From NCBI GenBank assembly GCA_016931225.1, contig JAFGFE010000009.1, positions 1 to 64,000 of the forward strand: DNA of 64,000 nt, in the 5' to 3' direction. Under the pieces are notes generated by a model, which searched no databases, was not told the DNA's origin, and worked only from the letters and a program-made list of their open reading frames with translations. The stretch comes from Candidatus Zymogenaceae bacterium (GTDB taxonomy: Bacteria; Desulfobacterota; Zymogenia; Zymogenales; Zymogenaceae). The translations under genes and the position numbers were made by a program. Below are positions 1,807 to 40,917 of the stretch, in pieces (position 1 is the stretch's first letter; each line of letters begins with the position of its first letter).

Positions 1807-2502
1807 ATGCACAAGACCATCGGCATACTGGGAGGATTGTCTCCCGAGTCGACGGTGGTGTACTACGAGACCATCGTCACAGAATACCGCGATCGGTTCG
1901 GGGATCAGCACTATCCTGAAATCATCATGTACAGCGTGGATTTCGACGAATATACCGAATGGTTCGTCGCCGGGAAGTGGGAAGATGCGGGGAGGAACAT
2001 GGCCGAGAAATTCGAGCACATGCGTGCCGCCGGGGCGGATTTCGGCCTCATCGCCTCAAACACACCCCACCGGGCGTTGGATACGATCACGGCGAATACG
2101 ACGCTTCCGATCCTCTCCATCGTCGCGGTAACGGCCGATGCGGTGAAGAAGGCGAAGGTGAAGACGGTGGGGTTATTGGGAACGCGCTTTACCATGCAGG
2201 AGGAATTCTATCGCCGGGGACTGGAGGACGCGGGGATTGCTGCGCTGATACCCGAGGGGGAGGATCTCGACCGGGTGCATGAGATCATCTACACGGAGCT
2301 GGTGAGACACATCATTACCGACGAAAGCCGTACCGAATACCTTCACATCATCGATCGCCTCATCGAGCGGGGAGCCGGGGGAATCATCCTTGGTTGTACC
2401 GAGATACCACTCCTGATAAAGCCGGGAGATCTTTCCGTCCCGGTGTTCGACACCACCGCCATCCACGCCGAGGCGGCGCTGGAGAGGGCGGTAAAAAAAT
2501 AA
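1807..2502 (+). CDS. Aspartate/glutamate racemase family protein
   Basis: A 231-residue member of the Asp/Glu/hydantoin racemase superfamily, closest by eye to the YgeA type. The N-terminus KTIGILGGLSPEST is typical. Two half-sites carry the acid/base residues: SNTPH (Ser84 in the first catalytic position) and GCTEIP (Cys197 in the second). The family usually has Cys or Thr at the first position, so Ser84 is a notable substitution that should change specificity or activity. The start at 1807 is chosen for the strong ribosome site AAAGGAGG at 1795-1802; an in-frame ATG at 1789 lies upstream of that site. It lies 43 bp after the PLP decarboxylase in the same direction, probably one transcript. 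It could supply or remove the enantiomer that the decarboxylase uses (inference). Confidence 0.88.
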   Translation: MHKTIGILGGLSPESTVVYYETIVTEYRDRFGDQHYPEIIMYSVDFDEYTEWFVAGKWEDAGRNMAEKFEHMRAAGADFGLIASNTPHRALDTITANTTLPILSIVAVTADAVKKAKVKTVGLLGTRFTMQEEFYRRGLEDAGIAALIPEGEDLDRVHEIIYTELVRHIITDESRTEYLHIIDRLIERGAGGIILGCTEIPLLIKPGDLSVPVFDTTAIHAEAALERAVKK

Positions 2503-2525
2503 TAGGGAAAATTAAATAAAATTGC

Positions 2526-2555
2526 TTGACAATTGATATTTACGCTTGGTAAGTT
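2526..2555 (+). promoter_or_regulatory. Possible sigma70 promoter
   Basis: TTGACA at 2526-2531 is followed after 18 bp by TAAGTT at 2550-2555, in an AT-rich stretch just after the racemase gene. The -10 box is weak. If active it would transcribe the otherwise empty stretch up to the hairpin at 2958-2990 or read on into the thiolase-like gene. Confidence 0.35.
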
Positions 2556-2957
2556 AATATTGAAATATATTTTAATATGCAATAGTAGTTTGGCTCAAGG
2601 GTGAAAAAAAGAGGAGAAGGAATATCGGAATCCAAGCGGAGCAGTTACAGAGGAGACGTCGGAACACCATATCATTCCCGCCGATATGGAGCATGCCGGT
2701 CACATCTCTGTTCGGTGCGTGTATGACAGAGACATGAGATACAGTGAGGCACGCCACAGTTTCTTCTTATGTATCGCCCGGAGCTGTAGACCTTCACATT
2801 AAAAAAATGAGGAGCCTTTTATCGTTTGAAAGACCGATTCATCGCCCCCCTCAATTTGATAACACCTTCAAGAACGAGACAACAGTCGACCAGGCGTGGA
2901 AGACGTTGGGGCTTTTCCGGAGGAAAAAGTAGCGTCACCGTTCAGAACGGACGATGT

Positions 2958-2990
2958 ACGGGGGGCGGCCCATAATGGGCCGCCCCCCGT
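2958..2990. terminator. Perfect 15-bp hairpin, terminator-like
   Basis: Arms 2958-2972 and 2976-2990 pair perfectly over 15 bp (ACGGGGGGCGGCCCA and its complement) around a three-base loop TAA. There is no clean T-run after it on either strand, so intrinsic termination is likely but not textbook. It separates the racemase side from the thiolase-like gene. Confidence 0.6.
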
Positions 2991-3111
2991 TGTATTCAGC
3001 ACGGAAAAAAAGCCCGATGACCGCATAGTCGGATGAAGGAGAAAACGCGTATTTCGAAAGACATGTTGCGGTTCTATTTCACGTGGAATAACACAGACTA
3101 AGGAGGATGCG

Positions 3112-4248
3112 ATGGAAAAGGTTGGCGTAGTCGGAGTGGGACAGACCACATTTGAGCGGTGTAAAGAGGATACCTTCGATGAGCTGGTTTTTGAAGTAGT
3201 GACGAAGGCACTCGCCGATGCCGGCGGAGAGATCGGCGATATCGACAACGTCATCACCGTCTCTAACGACTTCTGGGACGGCAGGGACGTTTCGTGCATG
3301 GCTGTCCAGGACGCCGCGGGAGGTTGGGACAAGGACATCTCCACCGTGGAGGGTGACGCCACGTTTGGCGTGCTCTACGGCATGATACGGGCCATGTCCG
3401 ACGCCTACGAGACAACCCTGATCGTAAGCCACATCAAAGGATCCGAGGGGGTGATGAACCTGATCACCAACGCGATGTTCGATCCGATCTATCAGCGTTC
3501 ACTGGGCATCGACGCCACATCATCCGCGGCGCTCCAGGCCCGGATGTATATGGAGAAGGCAAAGGCGACCCAGGAGGATGTCGCCCTTGTCTCGGTGAAG
3601 AATCATAAAAACGCCATGAACAATCCCTACGCCCAGCTTCCGATGGAGATCAGTGTTGCCGACGTGATGAAGTCGAAGATGCTTGCCGATCCCCTGAAGG
3701 TGTTGGATTGCTCGCCCATCAGCGACGGCGCAGCTGCGGTGATTCTGGCCACGGAGAAGGGCGCCAAGCGATTCAAGAAGAGCCCGGTCTGGATCAGGGG
3801 CGTGGGGCATATGTCCGACTCTTATACCCTGGGATACCGAGACCTGACGAACCCCCGGGCTCTGGATGCGGCGGCAAAAAAGGCCTACAAGATGGCCGGT
3901 GTCAAGAATCCCCTGAAGGACCTGGACGTGGTCGAGCTGTACGACGCCTATTCATACATGGAGCCGCTGTGGTATGAGGGGTTGGGTCTTGCAAAGGAGG
4001 GCAAGGGTGTGGAGCTGTTGAAGTCAGGCAGCACCGCCATGGACGGTGAGCTTCCGGTCAACCCGTCGGGCGGTGTCATCTCGGCCCACCCGGTTATCGT
4101 GGCGGGCATGGTCCGGGTCATCGAGTCTGTTCTGCAGCTCCGGGGGGAGGCGAAGAAGCGTCAGGTAAAGGGCGCCAAGACCGCCCTGGCCCACGGCATC
4201 AACGGCGCCTGCGGTCAGTCTCACTGCGTGTTTGTCATGGGCGTGTAG
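3112..4248 (+). CDS. Thiolase-like protein lacking the usual nucleophilic Cys
   Basis: A 378-residue protein of the SCP2/archaeal-type thiolase fold. The N-terminus EKVGVVGVGQTTF, the middle SPISDGAAAVILA, the loop VNPSGGVISAHP and the C-terminal HGINGACGQSHC are thiolase landmarks, and the C-terminal cysteine (about 367) is present. Where catalytic thiolases have the acyl-accepting cysteine (NACASG-like loop), this protein reads VEGDATFG (about 79-86), with no cysteine. It may be a non-catalytic partner of another thiolase or DUF35 protein, or use different chemistry. No DUF35 gene or partner subunit lies next to it. The start has a strong AGGAGG site. A hairpin terminator follows at 4351. 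Function is not assigned beyond the fold. Confidence 0.85.
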   Translation: MEKVGVVGVGQTTFERCKEDTFDELVFEVVTKALADAGGEIGDIDNVITVSNDFWDGRDVSCMAVQDAAGGWDKDISTVEGDATFGVLYGMIRAMSDAYETTLIVSHIKGSEGVMNLITNAMFDPIYQRSLGIDATSSAALQARMYMEKAKATQEDVALVSVKNHKNAMNNPYAQLPMEISVADVMKSKMLADPLKVLDCSPISDGAAAVILATEKGAKRFKKSPVWIRGVGHMSDSYTLGYRDLTNPRALDAAAKKAYKMAGVKNPLKDLDVVELYDAYSYMEPLWYEGLGLAKEGKGVELLKSGSTAMDGELPVNPSGGVISAHPVIVAGMVRVIESVLQLRGEAKKRQVKGAKTALAHGINGACGQSHCVFVMGV

Positions 4249-4350
4249 GGGTAGCCGAGGCTGAAGGGGGGCGCCGCTTCCCATAGGGTGGGTGATACTA
4301 CTGTCAGTTTATTATATATATATGTTTAATAGACGTCATTGTAGGCGGGT

Positions 4351-4387
4351 GGCGGTGTCCCCATTTAATCGGGATACCGCCTTTTTT
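4351..4387 (+). terminator. Rho-independent terminator
   Basis: Arms GGCGGTGTCCC (4351-4361) and GGGATACCGCC (4371-4381) pair with one G-U, followed by six T (4382-4387). It ends the thiolase-like transcript and insulates the AT-rich AIPR gene. Confidence 0.85.
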
Positions 4388-4498
4388 AACATCGGAAGAG
4401 TTCTCAATCGAACCCCCCCTCCACGTCGGCCCCGCCCGCTAGTCGTCCGCTGCGATGGGTGGCCTGGGATGTGATAAAGATGATTACGTATAAATTCC

Positions 4499-4526
4499 TT
4501 GACATTTGACATTTATATCCTATAAG
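4499..4526 (+). promoter_or_regulatory. Sigma70 promoter of the AIPR gene
   Basis: TTGACA (4499-4504), 16-bp spacer, TATAAG (4521-4526), within a strongly AT-rich stretch 56 bp before the ATG at 4582. The gene therefore has its own transcription start, downstream of the terminator at 4351. Confidence 0.75.
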
Positions 4527-4581
4527 TATATTTGTGAAAATTCTATTGATGTATAGTGAAAAATAGTAAATAGGGAAAATT

Positions 4582-6558
4582 ATGATAGACAAGATATTAG
4601 AAGCTTATCTTGACAATTTCAAGGAGGATTATAATTTGAGCGGGTTGGAAATCCCGGTCGCGTTTGAGCATTTTGTTAACCATTGTATTATAACAAAAGA
4701 TTATCCAGGGAATTATGATTTTGAAGAAATCGCGGTAGGGGGCACACATGATATATCGATAGATGGTTTGGCAATAATGGTAAATGATCATCTCGTGTTT
4801 TCAGAAGAAGACATAGACTATTTTAAAGATGAATTCAATAGATTTGATATAAAATTCATTTTTATACAATCAAAACTAGGTAGGAAGTTCGAAAGCTCAG
4901 AAATGGGACAATTTCTATATGGTGTAAAGTGTTTTTTTGAAGATGAGTCGAGTAGTAATGAGAATGTTGAAATAGGAAAACGAAGGGAATTGAAAGACTA
5001 TATTTATAAGAATGCAATTCACATGGACAAACCACCGGAATGTTTATTATATTACGTTACAACTGGAAAATGGGTGGATGAGCAAGTTCTTATAGACAGG
5101 ATTAAAAGGGGGGTGCAGGATCTTAAATCAACTAAACTTTTTCAAGAAGATGAAGTAAAATTTATTCCAATAGATGCTGAGAAATTAAGTAAAATTTATC
5201 GTGAGTTGAATCTTAAGGTTAAAGAAGAAGTACTTTTTGAGAAACATACTACTTTACCGGAAATGGATAAGGTAGAGGTTGCATATATTGGTATTTTACC
5301 TGCAAAAGAATATCTGAAATTGATTTGTGATAAGGAGGGATCATTACAGCGATCGATATTTTATGATAATGTGAGAGATTTTCAAGGACGTAATCATGTA
5401 AATAAAGAAATTGAAGAAACCTTAAGGGATGGTACACAAAATGATAAATTTGCATTATTGAATAATGGAATTACTATTGTTGCTAAATCCATCAATCCAG
5501 TAGGGGATAGATTCACCATAAAGGATTATCAGGTAGTAAACGGCTGTCAAACGAGTCATATTCTTTATAATAACAAGGATATTATAAATGAGAAAATTTA
5601 TATACCAGTCAAATTAGTTGTCACAGATGATCCTGATGTGACGAATGAAGTAATCAAGGCAACAAATCGGCAAACTGAGGTAAGGCTTGAAGCGTTTGAG
5701 TCTTTGAAAGAGTTTCAAAAGAAGCTTGAGGAATTCTATAATACTTTTGGAAAAGATAAAAAGCCTAGATTATATTATGAAAGAAGATCTAAGCAATATG
5801 GTCAATTGAAGATCCCTAAAAAATACATTGTAACCTTAACCACACAAGTAAAAAGTTTTTTAGCAATGTTCTTAAATGAACCACACAGTACACATAAATA
5901 TTATGGTGAGCTGATAAGATCAAATCAAAACAAATTATTTCTTGATAATCACTCATTATATCCATATTATATTAGCAGCTACACACTTATCACATTAGAA
6001 AGTTTTTTTAGCGACAAAGCCATTGACAATAATTATAAAAAATTTAAATATCAAATGATAATGTTGTTTAGGTTCAAAACTGAACCTTTTATTGTACCTC
6101 ACCTGAATAATTTAAATAAAATCGACAAATATTGTGATCAAATCCTAAAAACACTTTTTGATAGAAAGAAAACATTGAAAATATTTAAAGAGACTACTTC
6201 AATAATTGATGAAGTGTTGCAGAAAAAGAAAATAACTAAGAAAATAACTGTAAAAAAGGCTTCCAGGCTTAAGGCATTTACAAACGAATTAATAGAGTAT
6301 TGTCTCGGCGATGATGAATATTCCTCTGAGAAGATATTGCCAGCAACAGTTGACAGAGTAAGTGGAACAGTAAAGAACTATAGTGATATTAAAGGTCATG
6401 GATTTATTGAAACAGATACAAACAAAAACGTGTATGTTCATTCAAGCGATTTAGAGAAGTCAGGAATAGAAGGATTGGTTAAAGGACAAAAAGTTATATT
6501 TACTATAGTAAAAAATGACAGAGGGTATAGAGCGATAGATTTATCTATGGTACAATAA
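4582..6558 (+). CDS. AIPR-family protein with nuclease-like N-terminus and cold-shock domain
   Basis: A 658-residue protein. Residues about 290-500 carry the AIPR (abortive infection phage resistance) signature: FALLNNGITIVA, VVNGCQTSHIL and EVIKATNRQTEV. Upstream, GTHDISIDG (Asp57/Asp61) followed by FIFIQSK (Gln96-Ser-Lys98) matches the D...(E/Q)xK pattern of PD-(D/E)XK nucleases, as in Mrr-type enzymes. Residues about 594-658 form a cold-shock domain with KGHGFI (RNP1-like, 604-609) and VYVHSSD (RNP2-like, 617-623), which should bind RNA or single-stranded DNA. A role in phage defence is known for some AIPR proteins and inferred here. The gene is far more AT-rich than its neighbours and sits alone between a terminator and the convergent lut operon, which suggests transfer. 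The ribosome site is weak (AGGGAAA). No toxin, methylase or antitoxin partner is adjacent. Confidence 0.88.
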   Translation: MIDKILEAYLDNFKEDYNLSGLEIPVAFEHFVNHCIITKDYPGNYDFEEIAVGGTHDISIDGLAIMVNDHLVFSEEDIDYFKDEFNRFDIKFIFIQSKLGRKFESSEMGQFLYGVKCFFEDESSSNENVEIGKRRELKDYIYKNAIHMDKPPECLLYYVTTGKWVDEQVLIDRIKRGVQDLKSTKLFQEDEVKFIPIDAEKLSKIYRELNLKVKEEVLFEKHTTLPEMDKVEVAYIGILPAKEYLKLICDKEGSLQRSIFYDNVRDFQGRNHVNKEIEETLRDGTQNDKFALLNNGITIVAKSINPVGDRFTIKDYQVVNGCQTSHILYNNKDIINEKIYIPVKLVVTDDPDVTNEVIKATNRQTEVRLEAFESLKEFQKKLEEFYNTFGKDKKPRLYYERRSKQYGQLKIPKKYIVTLTTQVKSFLAMFLNEPHSTHKYYGELIRSNQNKLFLDNHSLYPYYISSYTLITLESFFSDKAIDNNYKKFKYQMIMLFRFKTEPFIVPHLNNLNKIDKYCDQILKTLFDRKKTLKIFKETTSIIDEVLQKKKITKKITVKKASRLKAFTNELIEYCLGDDEYSSEKILPATVDRVSGTVKNYSDIKGHGFIETDTNKNVYVHSSDLEKSGIEGLVKGQKVIFTIVKNDRGYRAIDLSMVQ

Positions 6559-6624
6559 CTAAAAACATTTTAATAATTTGTAATGGAAATCGCCCCGTAT
6601 GGGACGGTCTTAAAAATCGATTAT

Positions 6625-6651
6625 CTCACTCTATTCCGTGAGGCCCTTTTT
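6625..6651 (+). terminator. Weak hairpin with T-run after the AIPR gene
   Basis: CTCAC (6625-6629) and GTGAG (6638-6642) can pair over 5 bp, followed by GCCC and five T (6647-6651). It is the only terminator-like element between the AIPR gene and the convergent lutC. Weak stem, so low confidence. Confidence 0.3.
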
Positions 6652-6673
6652 GGCCCCCCCTTTCAGCTCCCCC

Positions 6674-7333
6674 TCACTCCACAATCACCACCGCCAGCTT
6701 TCCCGGGCCATGGATGCCCCGGACGGGGGTGAGGGCGATGTCCGCCGTCATGCTGGGGCCGGTGACAAGGCTCATGGCCCGAGGAGAGTGGCCGTCCGCC
6801 GCCATGCGCTCGAAAAGCGCCTCGGTATGGGGAAGCATGTTCTTCGCCTCCAGGACGGCCACGTGGATGAACGGGACCAGGGAGGTGAGCCTTCCTTTGC
6901 TTTCTCCGAAGATCATCGCCAGGGTGCCGGTTTCTGCAATCCCATATTGCGCCGTAGTCACGCCCGCGTCGCACGTGATGCACGCCTCCCGGTGGGCGGC
7001 GGCGTCGATGGGGCCGGAGGTGACATCCAGCTTCGCCGTCTTCAGCGCCTCCGGTATGCCCAGGGAGGCCAGCGGCTCCTCGTCCGCTACCAAGACGCTT
7101 TTCGCCCCCAGCTCATTCAGGGCTTCAACAACAGCGGCCGCTGCCTCCTTTTTTCCGGACGCCCGCTTGAGGATGCCGGTGGTGAGGGCCAGCTTTTCGC
7201 CGAAGGAGGCGATCATCGTCTCCGGGTCCGGGAAGGAGGGGGTAACCGGGATTCTTTCTTTCGGCTCTATGGCTCTGGACGGGGCGGATCTGAGTCTTTT
7301 CAGTATTGAATCGCGGATCGATGTGTCTGTCAT
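6674..7333 (-). CDS. lutC: LutC-like LUD-domain protein
   Basis: A 219-residue LUD-domain (LutC/YkgG) protein, the smallest part of the three-gene lactate-utilisation complex that oxidises lactate to pyruvate in the cytosol. Typical segments are CDAGVTTAQYGIAETGT and the C-terminal IHGPGKLAVVIVE. Start codon overlaps the stop of lutB by 4 bp (ATGA arrangement) and has an AAAGGAG ribosome site. The order on the minus strand is lutA-lutB-lutC, with both junctions overlapping, so the genes are translationally coupled. LutC is the least characterised subunit; its exact role is not known. Confidence 0.9.
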   Translation of the reverse strand: MTDTSIRDSILKRLRSAPSRAIEPKERIPVTPSFPDPETMIASFGEKLALTTGILKRASGKKEAAAAVVEALNELGAKSVLVADEEPLASLGIPEALKTAKLDVTSGPIDAAAHREACITCDAGVTTAQYGIAETGTLAMIFGESKGRLTSLVPFIHVAVLEAKNMLPHTEALFERMAADGHSPRAMSLVTGPSMTADIALTPVRGIHGPGKLAVVIVE

Positions 7334-8787
7334 GTTGTGCTCCTTTCCTCGCCGTCCGTTTTTCTCTCGACGGCATCCCGCCAGTGATCCCGGAAGGTTT
7401 TGCTCGGCGGCTCGGGCAGGTCCCGTACTTCAGTGAATCCCCGGCCGGGCTCCGGAAGCCGTGTAAGCTTTCCGTTGGACACGAAGGGCTTGATCGCCAG
7501 GCGAAAGAGGCGGCTCCCCAGCCGGTAGCGGCCGTTGCCTTTCAACCCCCATGACCATATGGACATGATCAGGCGTTCTGTGAGGGGCGGTTTTTTCCCG
7601 CCGAAGGTTTTGTCTCCAAACGCCCGTCGCTCCCGATGCTTTAGAAGCAGCTTCGGGTGGTCGATGCCTGCGGGACAGACCGATTTGCAGGTGCCGCAGA
7701 GTGACGTGGCGAAATAGAGGTCCTTTGCCCGGTCTTCACCCACCAGCAGCGGATTGAGCACCGCCCCGATGGGGCCGGAATAGACCCAGCCGTAGGCATA
7801 GCCCCCCACCTTCGTCCACACGGGACACGAATTCAGGCACGACCCGCACTTGATGCACTGGAGGACCTCCCGGAATTCCGGGTCCGCGTAGATCTTCGAC
7901 CGGCCGCCGTCCACGATGACGAGAAACACCTCCTCGGGACCGTCGATGTCATCGGGCCGCTTTGGGCCGTTGATGAGCGAGATATAGCTGGAGATGGCTT
8001 GGCCGGTGCAGCTTCGGGTCAGGAGCCTGAGCATATGGAGGGCGTCGTTCATGGTCGGGACGACCTTCTCAATCCCCATGACCGCCACGTGGGTTTTCGG
8101 TGCGGAGGTGGAATAGCGGATGTTCCCCTCGTTTTCCACCAGGACGATCGTCCCGGTCTCGGCCACCGCCATATTCACCCCGGTGATCCCCATCTGGGCC
8201 GAGAGAAACTTATGTCGTAAAAAATCTCTCGCCTGCATGGTCAGCTCGTTCAGGTCCATGGTCCGCTCGACGCCCATCACCTTCACGAAGAGATCGGCGA
8301 TCTCATCGGTTGTGATGTTCACCGCGGGCCCCACGATGTGGAAGGGGGTGCGCTTCGCCTGCTGGACGATGAACTCCCCCAGGTCCGTCTCGAAGGTGTC
8401 GATGCCGGAGGCAATCAGCTCCGCGTTCAGCCCCATTTCTTCCGTGAGCATCGATTTTCCCTTGGTGATCATATTCACGCCCCGCTCTTTCGCGAGCTTC
8501 AGGACGATTTCTTTCGCGTCGTCATAGTCTTCGGCCCACAGCACCGTCACGCCGTTTTTCGTGATATTTTCCTCGAATTGGGCGAGGAGCTCCGGCATCC
8601 GGGCGATGGCGTTCGTACGGATGGCGGCCCCGGTATCCAGGGCGGCCCGGGCGTCCGGCAGCGTGGACATGGCGTAGTCCCTCAGACCCTTGAACAGCAC
8701 CGGGAGCCGGGAGAGCACCTCCCGCTGGGACTCGTTGGCCAGGCCCTCTTTTGCTTTTTCTACGAATCGTTCCGTTTCTATCTTCAT
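7330..8787 (-). CDS. lutB: LutB-like iron-sulfur LUD protein
   Basis: A 485-residue protein joining an N-terminal LUD domain (VAETGTIVLVENEGN around the middle) to two [4Fe-4S] clusters, CIKCGSCLNSCPVW and CGTCKSVCPAGI, and a C-terminal tail. This is the architecture of LutB (YkgF), the electron-carrying subunit of the LutABC lactate oxidation complex. Length is normal for the family. A very strong AAAGGAGG ribosome site precedes the ATG, and both ends overlap neighbours by 4 bp. The electron acceptor is not evident; the FixCX-like pair at 10952-12906 is a nearby candidate but is divergent and unproven. Confidence 0.92.
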   Translation of the reverse strand: MKIETERFVEKAKEGLANESQREVLSRLPVLFKGLRDYAMSTLPDARAALDTGAAIRTNAIARMPELLAQFEENITKNGVTVLWAEDYDDAKEIVLKLAKERGVNMITKGKSMLTEEMGLNAELIASGIDTFETDLGEFIVQQAKRTPFHIVGPAVNITTDEIADLFVKVMGVERTMDLNELTMQARDFLRHKFLSAQMGITGVNMAVAETGTIVLVENEGNIRYSTSAPKTHVAVMGIEKVVPTMNDALHMLRLLTRSCTGQAISSYISLINGPKRPDDIDGPEEVFLVIVDGGRSKIYADPEFREVLQCIKCGSCLNSCPVWTKVGGYAYGWVYSGPIGAVLNPLLVGEDRAKDLYFATSLCGTCKSVCPAGIDHPKLLLKHRERRAFGDKTFGGKKPPLTERLIMSIWSWGLKGNGRYRLGSRLFRLAIKPFVSNGKLTRLPEPGRGFTEVRDLPEPPSKTFRDHWRDAVERKTDGEERSTT

Positions 8788-9542
8788 GACGCCGCCTCCT
8801 TTCCCATCGTACCGCTCTCTGTGGCCAGGACCTGGGCCAGGTGCAGCACCTTCAGGGGGAGACCCTGTTTTTCGACGTATCCCCGTATATTCAGAATACA
8901 GCCCGGCTCTGCCAGTACCAGGTACTCGGCGCCGGTGGCCACGGCCTTATTGACCTTGTCCTCCACCATGGCGCCGGATATCTCCGGATAGTTGGCGGAG
9001 AACTCGCCGCCGAATCCGCAGCAGACATCCATGTCGGGAAGAAAAAGCATCTGGGCCCCCGGCACCGCGTCCATCAGGGCGATCGGCTCGGCCATGATGC
9101 CCAGCCCCCTGACGATATGACAGGAGTGGTGATAGGCGACGCTGCCCGTAAAGCCGCTCCCTGTGTCGGTGACGCCCAGGACGTTGACGAGGTAGTCGGA
9201 CAGCTCGTACACCCGTCCCGCCAGCTCCAGGGCCTTCTTTTTGTATTCGCCCTCGAGAAGCTCGGGATAGTGTCGGGTGACCGTGTAGACGCATGAGCCG
9301 GAAGGGGCCACCACGGCGCTGTCTTTTGAGGCGTCGTAAAAGATGTCGATAAATCTTTGGGCAAGGGTCCGTGCCTTGTCGGTACGGCCGGCGTTTATCA
9401 TCGGCTGACCGCAGCAGGTCTGTCTCGGATCGTAAGACACAGAAACGCCCAGTCTCCGAAGGAGCCGGGCGGTATCGGTGCCGATATCGGGCAGAAATTG
9501 ATCGACAAGACAGGGGATGAAGAGCGCAACGTGTGTATTCAT
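8784..9542 (-). CDS. lutA: LutA-like CCG-domain protein
   Basis: A 252-residue protein with two cysteine-rich CCG domains of the GlpC/HdrB/LutA type: CCGQPMINAG in the first and HHSCHI ... DVCCGFGGEF in the second. These bind an iron-sulfur cluster. With lutB and lutC it forms the complex that oxidises L-lactate. It is the first gene of the minus-strand operon, preceded by a good promoter at 9579-9607. The ribosome site is poor compared with lutB and lutC. A GlcF or HdrB-like role is the alternative, but the complete A-B-C set makes LutABC the better call. Confidence 0.9.
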   Translation of the reverse strand: MNTHVALFIPCLVDQFLPDIGTDTARLLRRLGVSVSYDPRQTCCGQPMINAGRTDKARTLAQRFIDIFYDASKDSAVVAPSGSCVYTVTRHYPELLEGEYKKKALELAGRVYELSDYLVNVLGVTDTGSGFTGSVAYHHSCHIVRGLGIMAEPIALMDAVPGAQMLFLPDMDVCCGFGGEFSANYPEISGAMVEDKVNKAVATGAEYLVLAEPGCILNIRGYVEKQGLPLKVLHLAQVLATESGTMGKEAAS

Positions 9543-9578
9543 GGTGCATCCCGTGAGAAGTATTGAATTGTCATCATT

Positions 9579-9607
9579 ACAATAAAAAAAATATCACGAA
9601 AAGTCAA
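9579..9607 (-). promoter_or_regulatory. Promoter of lutABC
   Basis: On the minus strand TTGACT (plus coordinates 9602-9607), 17-bp spacer, TATTGT (9579-9584), about 37 bp before the lutA start. The region is AT-rich between two GC-rich genes. No operator palindrome was noticed. Confidence 0.65.
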
Positions 9608-29772: not shown

Positions 29773-29802
29773 TTGACAATAGTTAGCAGTGTGCGTTATA
29801 AA
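29773..29802 (+). promoter_or_regulatory. Promoter of the membrane-protein pair
   Basis: TTGACA (29773-29778), 18-bp spacer, TATAAA (29797-29802), 55 bp before the ATG at 29857. This shows that the frame upstream of 29857 is promoter, not coding. Confidence 0.75.
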
Positions 29803-29856
29803 TACAGAAAAATTTCTCCGATTAACTCATATAGTAATCGTGTGTTCCAATCCCTC

Positions 29857-30738
29857 ATGAAAAGAAAACCGATCCTCGCCTATATCCTCTCATCAGTCGC
29901 CATGGTGCTGGTGTGTTTTGCGTATTACAGGAGATACCTGGTCAATGCCCGGGAGACTCTTGACCTTTATTTTGGTATTCATTTCCACGGTTTAATTGTT
30001 GATAAAGCATATATATGGAAATCGGGTTTGGATTCTATTGGTATTCACGTCTCTTTGGTGATCATTCCCATCTTTTTTATACTCCTCTTGTGGGCCGTAC
30101 GGGGAAGACTCAAGGCGAACGTGCTTCTCACTGGACTGATGTTCTATCCTATAACGGCATTTTATGTTCATTCCAGATATATTATTCTCTTTGATGATGA
30201 TTTATGTGACCTCTTATTTCTAATTGCATTTTCACTCTCCGTTTTCTCGATCATTTTTTCTGTTATATCAATATATACCAATGAGCAGAAACTTCATGTT
30301 ACGAAACACGTCCCGAAGAGTATCTCTATCTCCTATTTTGTACTTGTTGTAATATCGCTTCTTGGGTATGTTACGCTCGGCCTGGTCAGTGATCGAGCAT
30401 TGAATTTCATTTGTTGGAGTTATAGGGGCGATTATTTCGCTTTCGTTCTCATCCTTGTGATTTTACTATTCTATTGCACAAAGGCTGTGTTGCGAAACGA
30501 CGAAAAGGGGTACATCACCCTGCCCATAGTAGTGACGGCGCTGACTATATCTATCACATCACCACTGGGGATTACGGCCCGTCTTTTCCAGTATGAACTC
30601 CCATTGGAAATTTTATATGAGTATTATATGGTGCATATGAAAACTGTTCCATGGATTATCCTTCTCTTCTCTCTTGTCTCCATTCTGTATCTGCTGTATT
30701 TATGCACTCGATTCGTCGAGGAAGGGCATGATGGATAA
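29857..30738 (+). CDS. Polytopic membrane protein, unrecognised
   Basis: About 293 residues with seven or eight hydrophobic segments and no motif I recognise. The N-terminus MKRKPILAYILSSVAMVLVC could be a signal anchor. Short charged loops (NARETLDLYF, KAVLRNDEKGY) separate the helices. Base composition is more AT-rich than the surrounding housekeeping genes. The start is set at ATG 29857 because the promoter occupies the bases upstream; ribosome site is weak. It overlaps the next gene by 11 bp, so the two are a unit. Enzyme or transporter roles cannot be judged. Confidence 0.7.
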   Translation: MKRKPILAYILSSVAMVLVCFAYYRRYLVNARETLDLYFGIHFHGLIVDKAYIWKSGLDSIGIHVSLVIIPIFFILLLWAVRGRLKANVLLTGLMFYPITAFYVHSRYIILFDDDLCDLLFLIAFSLSVFSIIFSVISIYTNEQKLHVTKHVPKSISISYFVLVVISLLGYVTLGLVSDRALNFICWSYRGDYFAFVLILVILLFYCTKAVLRNDEKGYITLPIVVTALTISITSPLGITARLFQYELPLEILYEYYMVHMKTVPWIILLFSLVSILYLLYLCTRFVEEGHDG

Positions 30739-31747
30739 TAACAGGAATGCATTCATATTAACCATGCTGGTATGCTTTTTTCTGGTACCGTTTCTCTACC
30801 TCTGGTCATCCTTTGACATCCCGAACAAGGGGCCGTTTGCTATTCTCTTTTTCCCGGCGAGTGGTAAATTGATTCATGAAAGAGGTGTACTCCTCGCTCT
30901 CCCTATTCTGATATGTACATGTTTTTTCGCGTATAGAGACAGCATGAGGGCCAACCTGGCAAGGATAGGTGTGTTGTGCTACTATTTTCATGCCGTATAC
31001 GCCATCATACCCCGTTTCCCACAAATACTGAAATTTTATGAAGAAAATCCTTTATTGAAGCTCTTTAAATTCAGTTTGCCTGGAATACTGTTTCTTATTC
31101 TTATCCTGTTTGCTCTGTATTACAGCATACGATCGATACCTCTCGATAAAATATCAACTGATTTATTTGAAAACGTTTCAAAGAAGTCAACAACGAGATT
31201 ATTGATTTTTGGAATCGTCACATTTTGCCTGCCGATGATTATTATCTTCTTCTGCCACGTTTCCGACATCGAGAGCCTGCTTTCTCTTAACAATTTCGTC
31301 TACCATTTTGTATATCTGAATGTGATGCATTTTGCCGGCAGGATGGCTTTACCTTTCAGTTTTCTTTCTCCTGAAATCAGATTCGGAGTGGTCGTGCCCC
31401 TCCTGGGGATCGCTGCTTATTTGCTTTCGAAAAACAGAGTGGCTGGATACCTGATGACTCCTATTCTATTGGTGAAGGAAGCGATTCCATTCCTCACGTT
31501 TTTTCATCCACAATATTATATGTGGTTTATGCGTCACTCTATCTTCGAAATGATACAGATAATTGCTGCGCACCTGGGAATTGGGAAAAATAAAGAAATA
31601 ATATCTTCTGATGCATTCTTAGATTATTTTACGAGGTTCTTTTCTATTGACCTTGGACATCTTCTTTTCATTATTTTTACCACCTGTTGTTTTATTTATT
31701 CCATCCTGTATCTGGCAAAGATGAAGGAAATAGATACAGCAAAATGA
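30728..31747 (+). CDS. Polytopic membrane protein, unrecognised (partner of the preceding gene)
   Basis: About 339 residues with around eight hydrophobic segments and no recognised motif. The ATG overlaps the end of the previous gene, preceded by GAGGAAGG. Hydrophobic segments such as LPGILFLILILFALYYSI and a long YYMWFMRHSIFEMIQII stretch suggest a multi-pass protein. AT-rich like its partner. The two may form a two-component membrane complex (inference). Confidence 0.68.
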   Translation: MMDNNRNAFILTMLVCFFLVPFLYLWSSFDIPNKGPFAILFFPASGKLIHERGVLLALPILICTCFFAYRDSMRANLARIGVLCYYFHAVYAIIPRFPQILKFYEENPLLKLFKFSLPGILFLILILFALYYSIRSIPLDKISTDLFENVSKKSTTRLLIFGIVTFCLPMIIIFFCHVSDIESLLSLNNFVYHFVYLNVMHFAGRMALPFSFLSPEIRFGVVVPLLGIAAYLLSKNRVAGYLMTPILLVKEAIPFLTFFHPQYYMWFMRHSIFEMIQIIAAHLGIGKNKEIISSDAFLDYFTRFFSIDLGHLLFIIFTTCCFIYSILYLAKMKEIDTAK

Positions 31748-31838
31748 CATGGATGGTTACATACAAGGTGGGGCGGGATGAAATCAAGGGAGACCGCCTG
31801 TAACTATCGTGCACGGTTGATAGACCATATGAGACTTC

Positions 31839-31866
31839 TTGACATTTACCGCTGAGACCATATAAT
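31839..31866 (+). promoter_or_regulatory. Consensus sigma70 promoter
   Basis: TTGACA (31839-31844), 16-bp spacer, TATAAT (31861-31866), both boxes perfect, 69 bp before the ATG at 31936. Confidence 0.8.
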
Positions 31867-31935
31867 TTTAATCATCTGGTACAAACCGAGAAAATCTAAA
31901 ACAAAGAGAACCGCTGAACGATAAGGGATAATCAC

Positions 31936-32955
31936 ATGAAACGACGAGTGGTGTTATTGTGTGCATTGGGCTGTGTTGTTGTCTGTTCGATCTTCCCGAG
32001 TGTCCCGGCGGGAGGATTTGAGGATACCATCGTTCTGGAGGACACGGGGGATGCGGAGATTATTGAGACCACGGTATTCAAGGGACATATCATAGATTTT
32101 TTGGTATCGAACTTTAGGACGATCGCTGCATTTGTCGCAATATTCAGTTTTCTTTTTGCGGTATATAACCATTTCATGTCCAAGAAGGATAAAGAGAGGG
32201 ATAGAAAATATTTCAAAGAGCATTTCGATTGGATAGAGAAGGAGATACAAAAGGATCTCTCACAGGATGAGATCGCCTCGCTGGAGGGGAGGCTGGAAGA
32301 GTTGAAAGAACAGATAGAGCAGGCGCCGAGGCTGGCGAAGATGGTGGTGCTGAAAGACAAATATAATTCTCTCATCGATGTATTGAATGAGAATTACGAA
32401 TCATTGCGGCTGGTGGAAAAGCAGATCACAGAGGCGGGCGGAACGGCCGAATTGGATGAGAATCTTCAGGAAGCCGTATCTTCAATCATCACTCCCCAAT
32501 ACGTCATTAAAAAACGGCTCTCGAATTTAAAAAATATTTTGATACTCACAACGGCGACGGCTGCAATCGCCGCATCGATTCTTCCCACAATACTGGAAAT
32601 CATCATATCATTGCCGTTTCTTGTGCTGAGTGGATATATTGTATTTCAAATGTCCCGGTTGTATTTCAGGGAAAACCTGGCGGCGCGGTTCGACGAAGAG
32701 GAGATGCACCGAATACGGCGGATGGTGGTGATATTTCTTTTGTTCTTCGCCGCATTTTTTACCGGTGTCATTATCGTCACGGTCATTCTTGAGAGGATGC
32801 TGCATGGCATGTGGGACATCGGCGGCGTGGTGGATATCGTCCTGGTGGCGTGTGCGGCCGTGATGTTCCTGATCTCATTCGGTCTCTTGAGACGATTCGG
32901 CACGTTGAGAAAAACAATAGACAATTCGTTTCTCAAAGAATTGATGGAGATATGA
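31936..32955 (+). CDS. Membrane protein with signal peptide and coiled coil, unrecognised
   Basis: A 339-residue protein. A signal peptide (MKRRVVLLCALGCVVV then VPAGG) is followed by a first transmembrane segment (about 53-75), then a charged helical stretch (KKDKERDRKYFKEHFDWIEK, LEGRLEELKEQIEQ) of about 100 residues likely to form a coiled coil. Four more hydrophobic segments fill the C-terminal half. It has its own consensus promoter. No domain recognised; stress or envelope function is guesswork. Confidence 0.7.
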   Translation: MKRRVVLLCALGCVVVCSIFPSVPAGGFEDTIVLEDTGDAEIIETTVFKGHIIDFLVSNFRTIAAFVAIFSFLFAVYNHFMSKKDKERDRKYFKEHFDWIEKEIQKDLSQDEIASLEGRLEELKEQIEQAPRLAKMVVLKDKYNSLIDVLNENYESLRLVEKQITEAGGTAELDENLQEAVSSIITPQYVIKKRLSNLKNILILTTATAAIAASILPTILEIIISLPFLVLSGYIVFQMSRLYFRENLAARFDEEEMHRIRRMVVIFLLFFAAFFTGVIIVTVILERMLHGMWDIGGVVDIVLVACAAVMFLISFGLLRRFGTLRKTIDNSFLKELMEI

Positions 32956-38996: not shown

Positions 38997-39153
38997 GGGA
39001 GAGAAGCGTGTGTTTGAAAGTAAGGAGCTTTAAAAAACCGGTATGAATTTGTAAATCTAATAATTACTTGTTCTTCAATAAAAAAAATGGTATCGTATGC
39101 CTGAGAAATAAAAGATCGTAATATTGTCCATCAGTAATAATAGAGTAAAAAGA

Positions 39154-40917
39154 ATGAGTAAGTGTGATTATAGAACGGAATATCTGGATCTAAGTACAGG
39201 AAACCAAAAAAAATATGAGTGTCCTCATTCGAACTTGATAATTAAAGATATTGATGGCAAACACCGTTGTATTTTTCATGCCCAAGACGAGAAAAAAGAT
39301 ATTGAAATTTTTAAAAAAGAATTTGAAAAACTTTACGAATCAGGAAAACACAATTTTGTCGGGTTTATTTTTCCAGAGGGATTCAGTTTTCAACAACTTA
39401 AAAAGCAAGAGGAGTCGCTGGTTTTTGAAAATGCAGAATTTGCTTTTGCAGAATTCCAATGCAAGGCTGATTTTTCTGGTGTTCAGTTTAAAGGCATAAT
39501 AGGAACTAGCTTTTGTTTAGCTGAATTTTTAAATAATGCTGATTTTAGTTATGCACATTTTTTAGGTAAAGGTAAGGTTAGTTTTTTTGGAGCACATTTC
39601 AAAGGCAAGGGAGTAACCACTTTTATCTCGACGCATTTCTTATGTGAAGGAGGGACAGACTTTTCGAGTGCTGTATTCGAAGAAAAGTGGGGGACGCTTT
39701 TTGATTTTGCGGAATTTGAAGGAAATGGGGTAATAGACTTCAGTCATGCAATATTTTCCAGCAAGGTGAGGACCAGTTTAGTTAATGCTCAATTCTCCAG
39801 TAGAGGGGGAGTAAACTTCAGAGGAGCATATTTTGACGGTAAAGGATATGTTGATTTTTCTCATGCACACTTCTTCGGCGGGGGAATTGTAAATTTCTCA
39901 GGGGTGCACTTTATTGTTGAGGGTGGAATTAACTTTATTGATACGAAATTCTATAATAATTTGTCTGCAAATTTTTCTAGAGCAAGGTTTTCCAGTGAGG
40001 AGGGTATAAACTTTAGTGGAGCACATTTCAAAAGTGAGAAAGGAACCGACTTTAAAGAAGCTTATTTCTCAGGTAAAGGTAAAACTGATTTTAGTAGTGC
40101 GATTATTTTAACTATAAATTTCGAAGGTACAACATTCGAAAAAACAACTGATTTTCAAGACAGTAGATCAGTTTTTCTGGGTTTTCGTAATACATATTTT
40201 GAACAGAATTTACTTCTTCGGGGAAGTTATCTTAATGAAATTTATTTTAATGAAATAGATATCAGCAATATTTATTTGGGTGGAAAGTTCGGGGGTGAAT
40301 ATAAACCATTTGCTCCTAAGAAAACCCGAGATAAAATACATTTTAACGACCTACGCATATTTATTTCACTCGGGTTAAGCGAAGACTTCCGACCAATAGG
40401 GCCAGCCCTTTCTTCTCATAAGAAGGCAGACAAGGAAGGTGGAAAAGACAACTGGTTGCAGGCTCAAAAAGACTATCTCGTTATAAAAGAGTGGTTTAGA
40501 TTGTTGGCGGATTATGAAGCCGAAGATGAAATGCTATATTGGGCAAGAAGATGCGAAGCAAAAACAAAAAAATTTCTTGGCAAATGTTGGTTTTGTATTT
40601 TAAAAAATATTCTTGGATTTGGGATAAGATTTAAACCAGTGATAATAAGCATAATAAGTGTAATACTTCTTTCTGCATTATTATACTTTTTTGCTGGATT
40701 AATGGGACTTCTTAACTACGATAGCTGTGAACCGGTTAACTTTATTGATAGATTAGTCAATTCTCTTTACCTGAGTTTCATTACATATACTACAGTAGGG
40801 TTTGGAGACATCTCTCCTTTAGATGGTTTCAGGTTTGTTACAATGTTCGAGGGCATTTTCGGTGTAATCCTGAATGCATGGTTGGTTGCCATGTTAGCCA
40901 GAAGGTTATTCAGGTAA
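39154..40917 (+). CDS. Potassium-channel-like protein with 13-residue beta-solenoid repeats
   Basis: A 587-residue protein. The N-terminus has CPH and CIFH pairs (KYECPHSN, HRCIFHA) that could bind metal. Residues 129 to about 323 are 15 tandem units of exactly 13 residues, pattern x-(D/N)-F-S-x-A-x-F-x-x-x-G-x, related to pentapeptide repeats but with Phe spacing of 5 then 8. The C-terminus has two hydrophobic helices around a pore loop containing the selectivity filter TTVGFGD, typical of a two-TM potassium channel. The gene is clearly more AT-rich than the genes around it, suggesting transfer. The start at ATG 39154 has a weak purine-rich site; a TTG at 39124 is poorer. Ligand and role unknown. 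Confidence 0.85.
   Translation: MSKCDYRTEYLDLSTGNQKKYECPHSNLIIKDIDGKHRCIFHAQDEKKDIEIFKKEFEKLYESGKHNFVGFIFPEGFSFQQLKKQEESLVFENAEFAFAEFQCKADFSGVQFKGIIGTSFCLAEFLNNADFSYAHFLGKGKVSFFGAHFKGKGVTTFISTHFLCEGGTDFSSAVFEEKWGTLFDFAEFEGNGVIDFSHAIFSSKVRTSLVNAQFSSRGGVNFRGAYFDGKGYVDFSHAHFFGGGIVNFSGVHFIVEGGINFIDTKFYNNLSANFSRARFSSEEGINFSGAHFKSEKGTDFKEAYFSGKGKTDFSSAIILTINFEGTTFEKTTDFQDSRSVFLGFRNTYFEQNLLLRGSYLNEIYFNEIDISNIYLGGKFGGEYKPFAPKKTRDKIHFNDLRIFISLGLSEDFRPIGPALSSHKKADKEGGKDNWLQAQKDYLVIKEWFRLLADYEAEDEMLYWARRCEAKTKKFLGKCWFCILKNILGFGIRFKPVIISIISVILLSALLYFFAGLMGLLNYDSCEPVNFIDRLVNSLYLSFITYTTVGFGDISPLDGFRFVTMFEGIFGVILNAWLVAMLARRLFR

Follow-up and report, generated by a model that had tools for sequence, protein, structure and literature searches.

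The stretch of DNA analysed here (64,000 nucleotides; the window from now on) carries a gene of the AbiU family whose product ends in a cold-shock domain (CSD), and this gene will be referred to as the AbiU-CSD gene (Table 1). It begins with ATG and its frame is intact, without internal stops. Its GC content is 0.37-0.38 compared with 0.50-0.63 for most of the window, in agreement with the first-pass annotation, which had described an isolated, AT-rich gene. A thiolase-like gene ends upstream at 4248, and a convergent LUD (LutC-like) gene, running from 7333 to 6674 and belonging to a lactate-utilisation operon, lies downstream. There is no candidate partner ORF between 4248 and 6674. Only 2 PADLOC models are hit by 49 further genes of the window, and the AbiU-CSD gene is located outside any defence island. 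The nearest genome containing Lut genes (G001) does not have the thiolase side, and therefore, it does not provide a clean pre-insertion site for an empty-site comparison. The gene had also been credited with its own promoter. A TTGACA-16 nt-TATAAG arrangement is plausible when read by eye, but a consensus promoter scan did not pick up this motif at 4499, and chance matches to the promoter consensus are common because the surrounding sequence is AT-rich.

Table 1. Coordinates in the window of the AbiU-CSD gene, its candidate promoter and the domains of its product.
Feature	Positions	Strand	Basis
Candidate promoter, TTGACA-16-TATAAG	4499..4526	+	Read by eye from the sequence
AbiU-CSD gene, 658 aa, stop included	4582..6558	+	ORF, Pfam, PADLOC
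N-terminal domain, likely Mrr-like (PD-(D/E)XK type), residues 1-222	4582..5247	+	Conservation, Mrr_cat profile comparison, permutations, model
AIPR core, residues 260-525	5359..6156	+	PF10592, 152 bits (cut-off 25), E 3.8e-44
C-terminal cold-shock domain, residues 594-655	6361..6546	+	PF00313, 50 bits (cut-off 27), E 2.7e-13

Two other regions of the window are AT-rich. The gene at 39124-40917 (region GC 0.35) encodes repeated FSGAHF-type (pentapeptide-like) units and a C-terminal segment that contains TVGFGD, a sequence resembling that of potassium channels, and is flanked by ordinary genes on either side. An island at 29773-32955 (GC about 0.40) encodes two adjoining multi-pass membrane proteins, with a third helical membrane protein downstream of the pair.

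The AbiU-CSD protein matches the PADLOC AbiU model (PDLC02357) over residues 3-559 (profile positions 3-528 of 537) with an E value of 6.7e-132, and thus, it is a member of a catalogued family. The link between AIPR proteins and abortive infection that had been given for this gene is supported by this assignment, and the AIPR core reported in the first-pass annotation scores far above the Pfam cut-off. Phage-encoded relatives are represented by PHROG 1841 (phage 'Abi alpha-like'), which also covers this part of the protein. Relatives that do not have a CSD are found on plasmids of Photobacterium, Synechocystis (pSYSX), E. coli, Providencia, Caballeronia, and Lactococcus, as well as in the phages Fels-2 and Thyatira (a mycobacteriophage). 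They are lone genes, often adjoining integrases, recombinases or transposases, and therefore, standing alone is ordinary for the AbiU family. The AbiU gene of pSYSX (L050, 4001-6887) is interrupted by an IS4 element. The genome of the window carries a second AIPR/AbiU-like gene (G000 contig C14, 31679-33091; L001, L045, L239) that is apparently shortened at its N-terminus; its extended match contains one in-frame TGA.

Within the AIPR core, residues N263, R265, N294, N295, G296, T298, Q317, N320, G321, Q323, N362, Q364, R401, and R402 are invariant in an alignment of 76 sequences, suggesting a binding or catalytic site. AIPR proteins have been proposed to be linked to DndB (PMC3506569). The AIPR core can be aligned in register with DGQHR at VNGCQ/DGQH and ATNRQ, with a score within the range of permuted controls, and the comparison of the AIPR-core profile with the DndB, DGQHR, and ParB profiles gave nothing significant; therefore, we do not rely on the DndB/DGQHR link. 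Searches of PDB sequences with the N-terminal and AIPR-core profiles did not find any relative. To our knowledge, no mechanism has been established for AbiU/AIPR proteins.

The N-terminal domain had been proposed to contain a nuclease-like motif consisting of Asp57/Asp61, Gln96, and Lys98. The QxK part of this motif stands, since D61 and Q96 are invariant in 76 relatives and K98 is conserved in at least 90% of them, as are F28 and E29. D57 is common and not invariant, and E29 had been overlooked, so that the motif is better written as E29, D61, Q96, and K98. A profile of this region was compared with a profile built from the Mrr catalytic domains of related genomes (Mrr_cat), resulting in the alignment of the FE, GxxDxxIDG, and QxK motifs (P 1.1e-4, probability 56%). 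This alignment scored 32.8, whereas the best of 200 comparisons with permuted columns of the Mrr profile scored 22.1 and the reversed profile 14.5, and the negative controls (AIPR core against Mrr and N-terminus against DndB) gave probabilities below 1%. The AlphaFold2 model of residues 1-222 has a pLDDT of 93.9 and places E29 on a helix, with one strand beginning after D61 and another ending in Q96-x-K98. This order of helix and strands is that expected of PD-(D/E)XK folds.

When the N-terminal model was compared with the PDB by Foldseek, none of the matches was significant, and the PD-(D/E)XK-type structures in the list, 2bhn (rank 28, E 0.47) and 6xl1 (rank 41, E 0.72), ranked below unrelated matches to EF-Tu. 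For this reason we consider it likely, and not firmer, that the N-terminal domain is a nuclease of the Mrr or PD-(D/E)XK type; of the nuclease-like N-terminus annotated originally, the profile alignment and the confident model are in favor, but the fold search remained below significance. A review published in 2012 assigned an N-terminal HEPN RNase domain to AIPR proteins (PMC3506569). In the AbiU-CSD branch, the conserved residues appear to fit an Mrr-like nuclease better than HEPN.

The full-length structure model (pLDDT 91.3) includes a confidently modelled CSD, and Foldseek aligned this part with the structures of CspA, CspB, and YB-1, several of them with bound RNA or ssDNA (TM 0.86 to CspA, normalized by target length). 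Thus, the structure prediction confirms a true CSD fold. The annotated RNP1 (KGHGFI) and RNP2 (VYVH) motifs are both recognisable, but four of the stacking positions of Bacillus subtilis CspB are replaced (W8 by N, F15 by H, F30 by S, and F38 by I), while Y9, F17, Y27, and H29 are kept. Judging by these residues, the nucleic-acid-binding face of the window CSD is partly eroded, and its binding to nucleic acids may therefore be weak. Among 24 fused proteins, the window copy is the one that departs most from the stacking positions of CspB. All 24 have an aromatic or identical residue at the positions of F9, F27, and H29, those of F15 and F17 are kept in 23 of 24, and that of W8 is aromatic in 20 of 24.

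These other fused proteins came from two scans. A single-protein query of the genome contigs gave no match, and an alignment of AbiU cores retrieved 541 relatives, of which the best 80 were taken; a scan of viral contigs yielded 51 loci. A cold-shock profile detected an in-frame C-terminal CSD in 22 loci of these best 80 and in one viral contig, where the gene lies close to an edge and none of the other genes tested matches a PHROG. The possibility that the fusion is unique to the genome of the window was thus rejected, given 23 further fused proteins. At least 24 proteins, including that of the window, carry the fusion. According to record titles and the tree output, the 23 others cover about twelve phyla: Myxococcota, Nitrospirota, Nitrospinota, Acidobacteriota, Planctomycetota, Chloroflexota, Bacteroidota, Ignavibacteriota, Pseudomonadota, Verrucomicrobiota, Spirochaetota, and Thermodesulfobacteriota. 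Pfam confirmed the CSD in the 7 fused copies scanned out of 7 (L059, L062, L065, L068, L091, L122, and L138), and the whole fused proteins share 37-55% identity with the window protein. Because relatives were sampled by their similarity to the window protein, these counts do not give the frequency of the fusion across the AbiU family. At the loci of the unfused relatives, no CSD encoded by a gene of its own was found.

In the AbiU tree, the fused proteins group strongly within a single region, interspersed with cyanobacterial and other unfused lines. A single gain of the CSD was neither demonstrated nor rejected (AU p 0.365), but the best and bootstrap trees need 2-3 changes. The AbiU protein of an Oscillospiraceae bacterium (L113), a distant member on a long branch adjoining the fused region, has an S1 RNA-binding domain (7681-7971) where the window gene has the CSD. 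A Pfam scan of only the tail places this domain above the cut-off, and a scan of the complete protein leaves it slightly below; the tail does not match the CSD profile, and no second case of an S1-type fusion appeared in the viral contigs. On a Phocaeicola plasmid (L056, 5783-6037), the AbiU protein has a long tail with a weak CSD likeness (6.2 bits), a score that none of 200 shuffled tails equalled. Taken together, both tails suggest that an OB-fold at the C-terminus has been gained more than once, the sequence comparison supporting such a gain for the S1 domain and being only suggestive for the CSD-like tail.

The surroundings of the fused copies differ from those of the window gene. Their 108 nearest neighbours match 174 PADLOC models, a figure that exceeds the number of defence genes because many of these models overlap and whose control is one window (49 genes) instead of matched genomes. 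Several fused copies adjoin type I and III restriction genes, ThsB (Thoeris), AbiEi/AbiEii or PDC-S68, and Pfam reported integrases and relaxases among the neighbours. In one locus (L058), a DNA methyltransferase gene (4612-5967) ends about 33 bp upstream of the fused gene, and both possibly form one operon encoding a restriction-modification-like pair. No conserved partner was found in 32 loci taken from the fused group and from its unfused sister lines, in agreement with the annotated absence of a partner gene. Besides AbiU, a single protein family reaches 5 of these 32 loci, probably the integrases reported by Pfam. AbiU relatives sit on plasmids, in prophages, and next to integrases.

The family, the domain composition, the conservation of the motifs, and the recurrence of the fusion are established by these observations. 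From them we infer, as the reading that we prefer, that AbiU-CSD may be a single-gene abortive-infection effector, made of a nuclease, an AIPR core, and an OB-fold that gates or directs it in response to RNA or ssDNA, a reading for which we find belief and doubt evenly balanced. The C-terminal OB-fold would bring the protein to RNA or ssDNA exposed in phage infection, the AIPR core would couple this binding to cutting, and the N-terminal domain would cut nucleic acid using a metal ion. As a result, phage expression would stop or the infected cell would die.

The CSD might instead be a regulator or stabiliser of an AbiU-type defence protein, for example by binding its own mRNA or nascent transcripts so that little protein is made, leaving the AIPR core to read the trigger. 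Most AbiU relatives, which are presumably functional, do without a CSD, as do some lines inside the fused region, and the eroded binding face of the window copy would also be consistent with such a role. Against this explanation, almost every other fused copy retains the aromatic and RNP positions, and a distant relative has an S1 domain in place of the CSD, which indicates that the conserved role is to bind nucleic acid. These two observations do not separate sensing from autoregulation, and on balance we regard a purely regulatory CSD as unlikely. It could also be argued that the N-terminal domain, although related to nucleases, is catalytically dead or only binds, and that the AIPR core is the effector, given that the densest set of invariant polar residues lies in this core and that no significant fold match to nucleases was obtained. 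A conservation of 90-100% for D61, Q96, and K98 in 76 diverse proteins is nevertheless unusual for a dead site, making this second alternative quite improbable. Equally improbable is that the window gene is a housekeeping or degenerate gene, i.e., an AT-rich acquired AbiU copy that is decaying and inactive, a view that agrees with the loss of CSD stacking residues and the location outside a defence island, but is at odds with an unbroken frame of 658 codons and with the retention of all the other family-invariant residues.

Returning to the single-gene effector, a wider version of this proposal would include all the AbiU-OB proteins, with a CSD, an S1 domain or perhaps a divergent CSD-like tail, as immune nucleases encoded by single genes. 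Their C-terminal OB-fold would be exchangeable, would have been acquired repeatedly within the AbiU family, and would gate the Mrr-like nuclease by reading RNA or ssDNA. We put it forward tentatively, and consider it rather unlikely to hold in this full extent. AbiU/AIPR proteins are widespread on plasmids, in prophages, and beside other defence genes, and a branch with a built-in RNA/ssDNA-binding domain provides a direct hypothesis for what they recognise. Moreover, the fused and unfused relatives are a natural material for testing the role of the C-terminal tail.

The first-pass annotation had named no described AIPR-CSD defence protein, and our search of the open literature (subscription papers and preprints lying outside it) likewise returned no description of an AbiU/AIPR-CSD fusion, whether in defence or not. 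Thus, the family is known, and as far as we have searched its combination with a CSD was not found to be described previously. AbiU1 of Lactococcus lactis and the PADLOC AbiU model resemble the window protein in the N-terminal and AIPR part (residues 3-559) and in the invariant motifs. Unlike the window locus, the lactococcal system has a second gene, abiU2 (PMC3985639), and the window protein adds the C-terminal CSD. The Mrr-type restriction endonuclease domain (PF04471) has the FE, GxxDxxID, and QxK motifs arranged in the order of the window protein; however, only about 54 columns align, there is no significant structural match, and the rest of the protein differs. The CSD resembles that of the effector of type V retrons (Se72; PADLOC CSD_V, NCBIfam NF038236), but it reaches 46 bits against an NCBIfam cut-off of 82. 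Type V retrons have an msr-msd RNA and a reverse transcriptase next to the CSD gene; Rfam gave no match in 2500-9600 of the window, and no reverse transcriptase was recognised in the neighbouring ORFs, which read as metabolic genes.

Other defence systems also contain this type of domain. CoCoNuT type IV restriction systems (PMC11090510) join PD-(D/E)xK nuclease modules with CSD-like OB-folds, although they are multi-gene GTPase systems with McrB/McrC homologues, none of which is present at the window locus. The PfkA kinase of the KKP system (PMC11341870) is a defence protein that bears a C-terminal CSD, but it is the kinase of a three-gene system and not a nuclease. Since S1 and CSD are, in addition, counted with the domains that conflict systems direct at nucleic acids (PMC7159879), the theme to which the AbiU-CSD fusion belongs is a known one.
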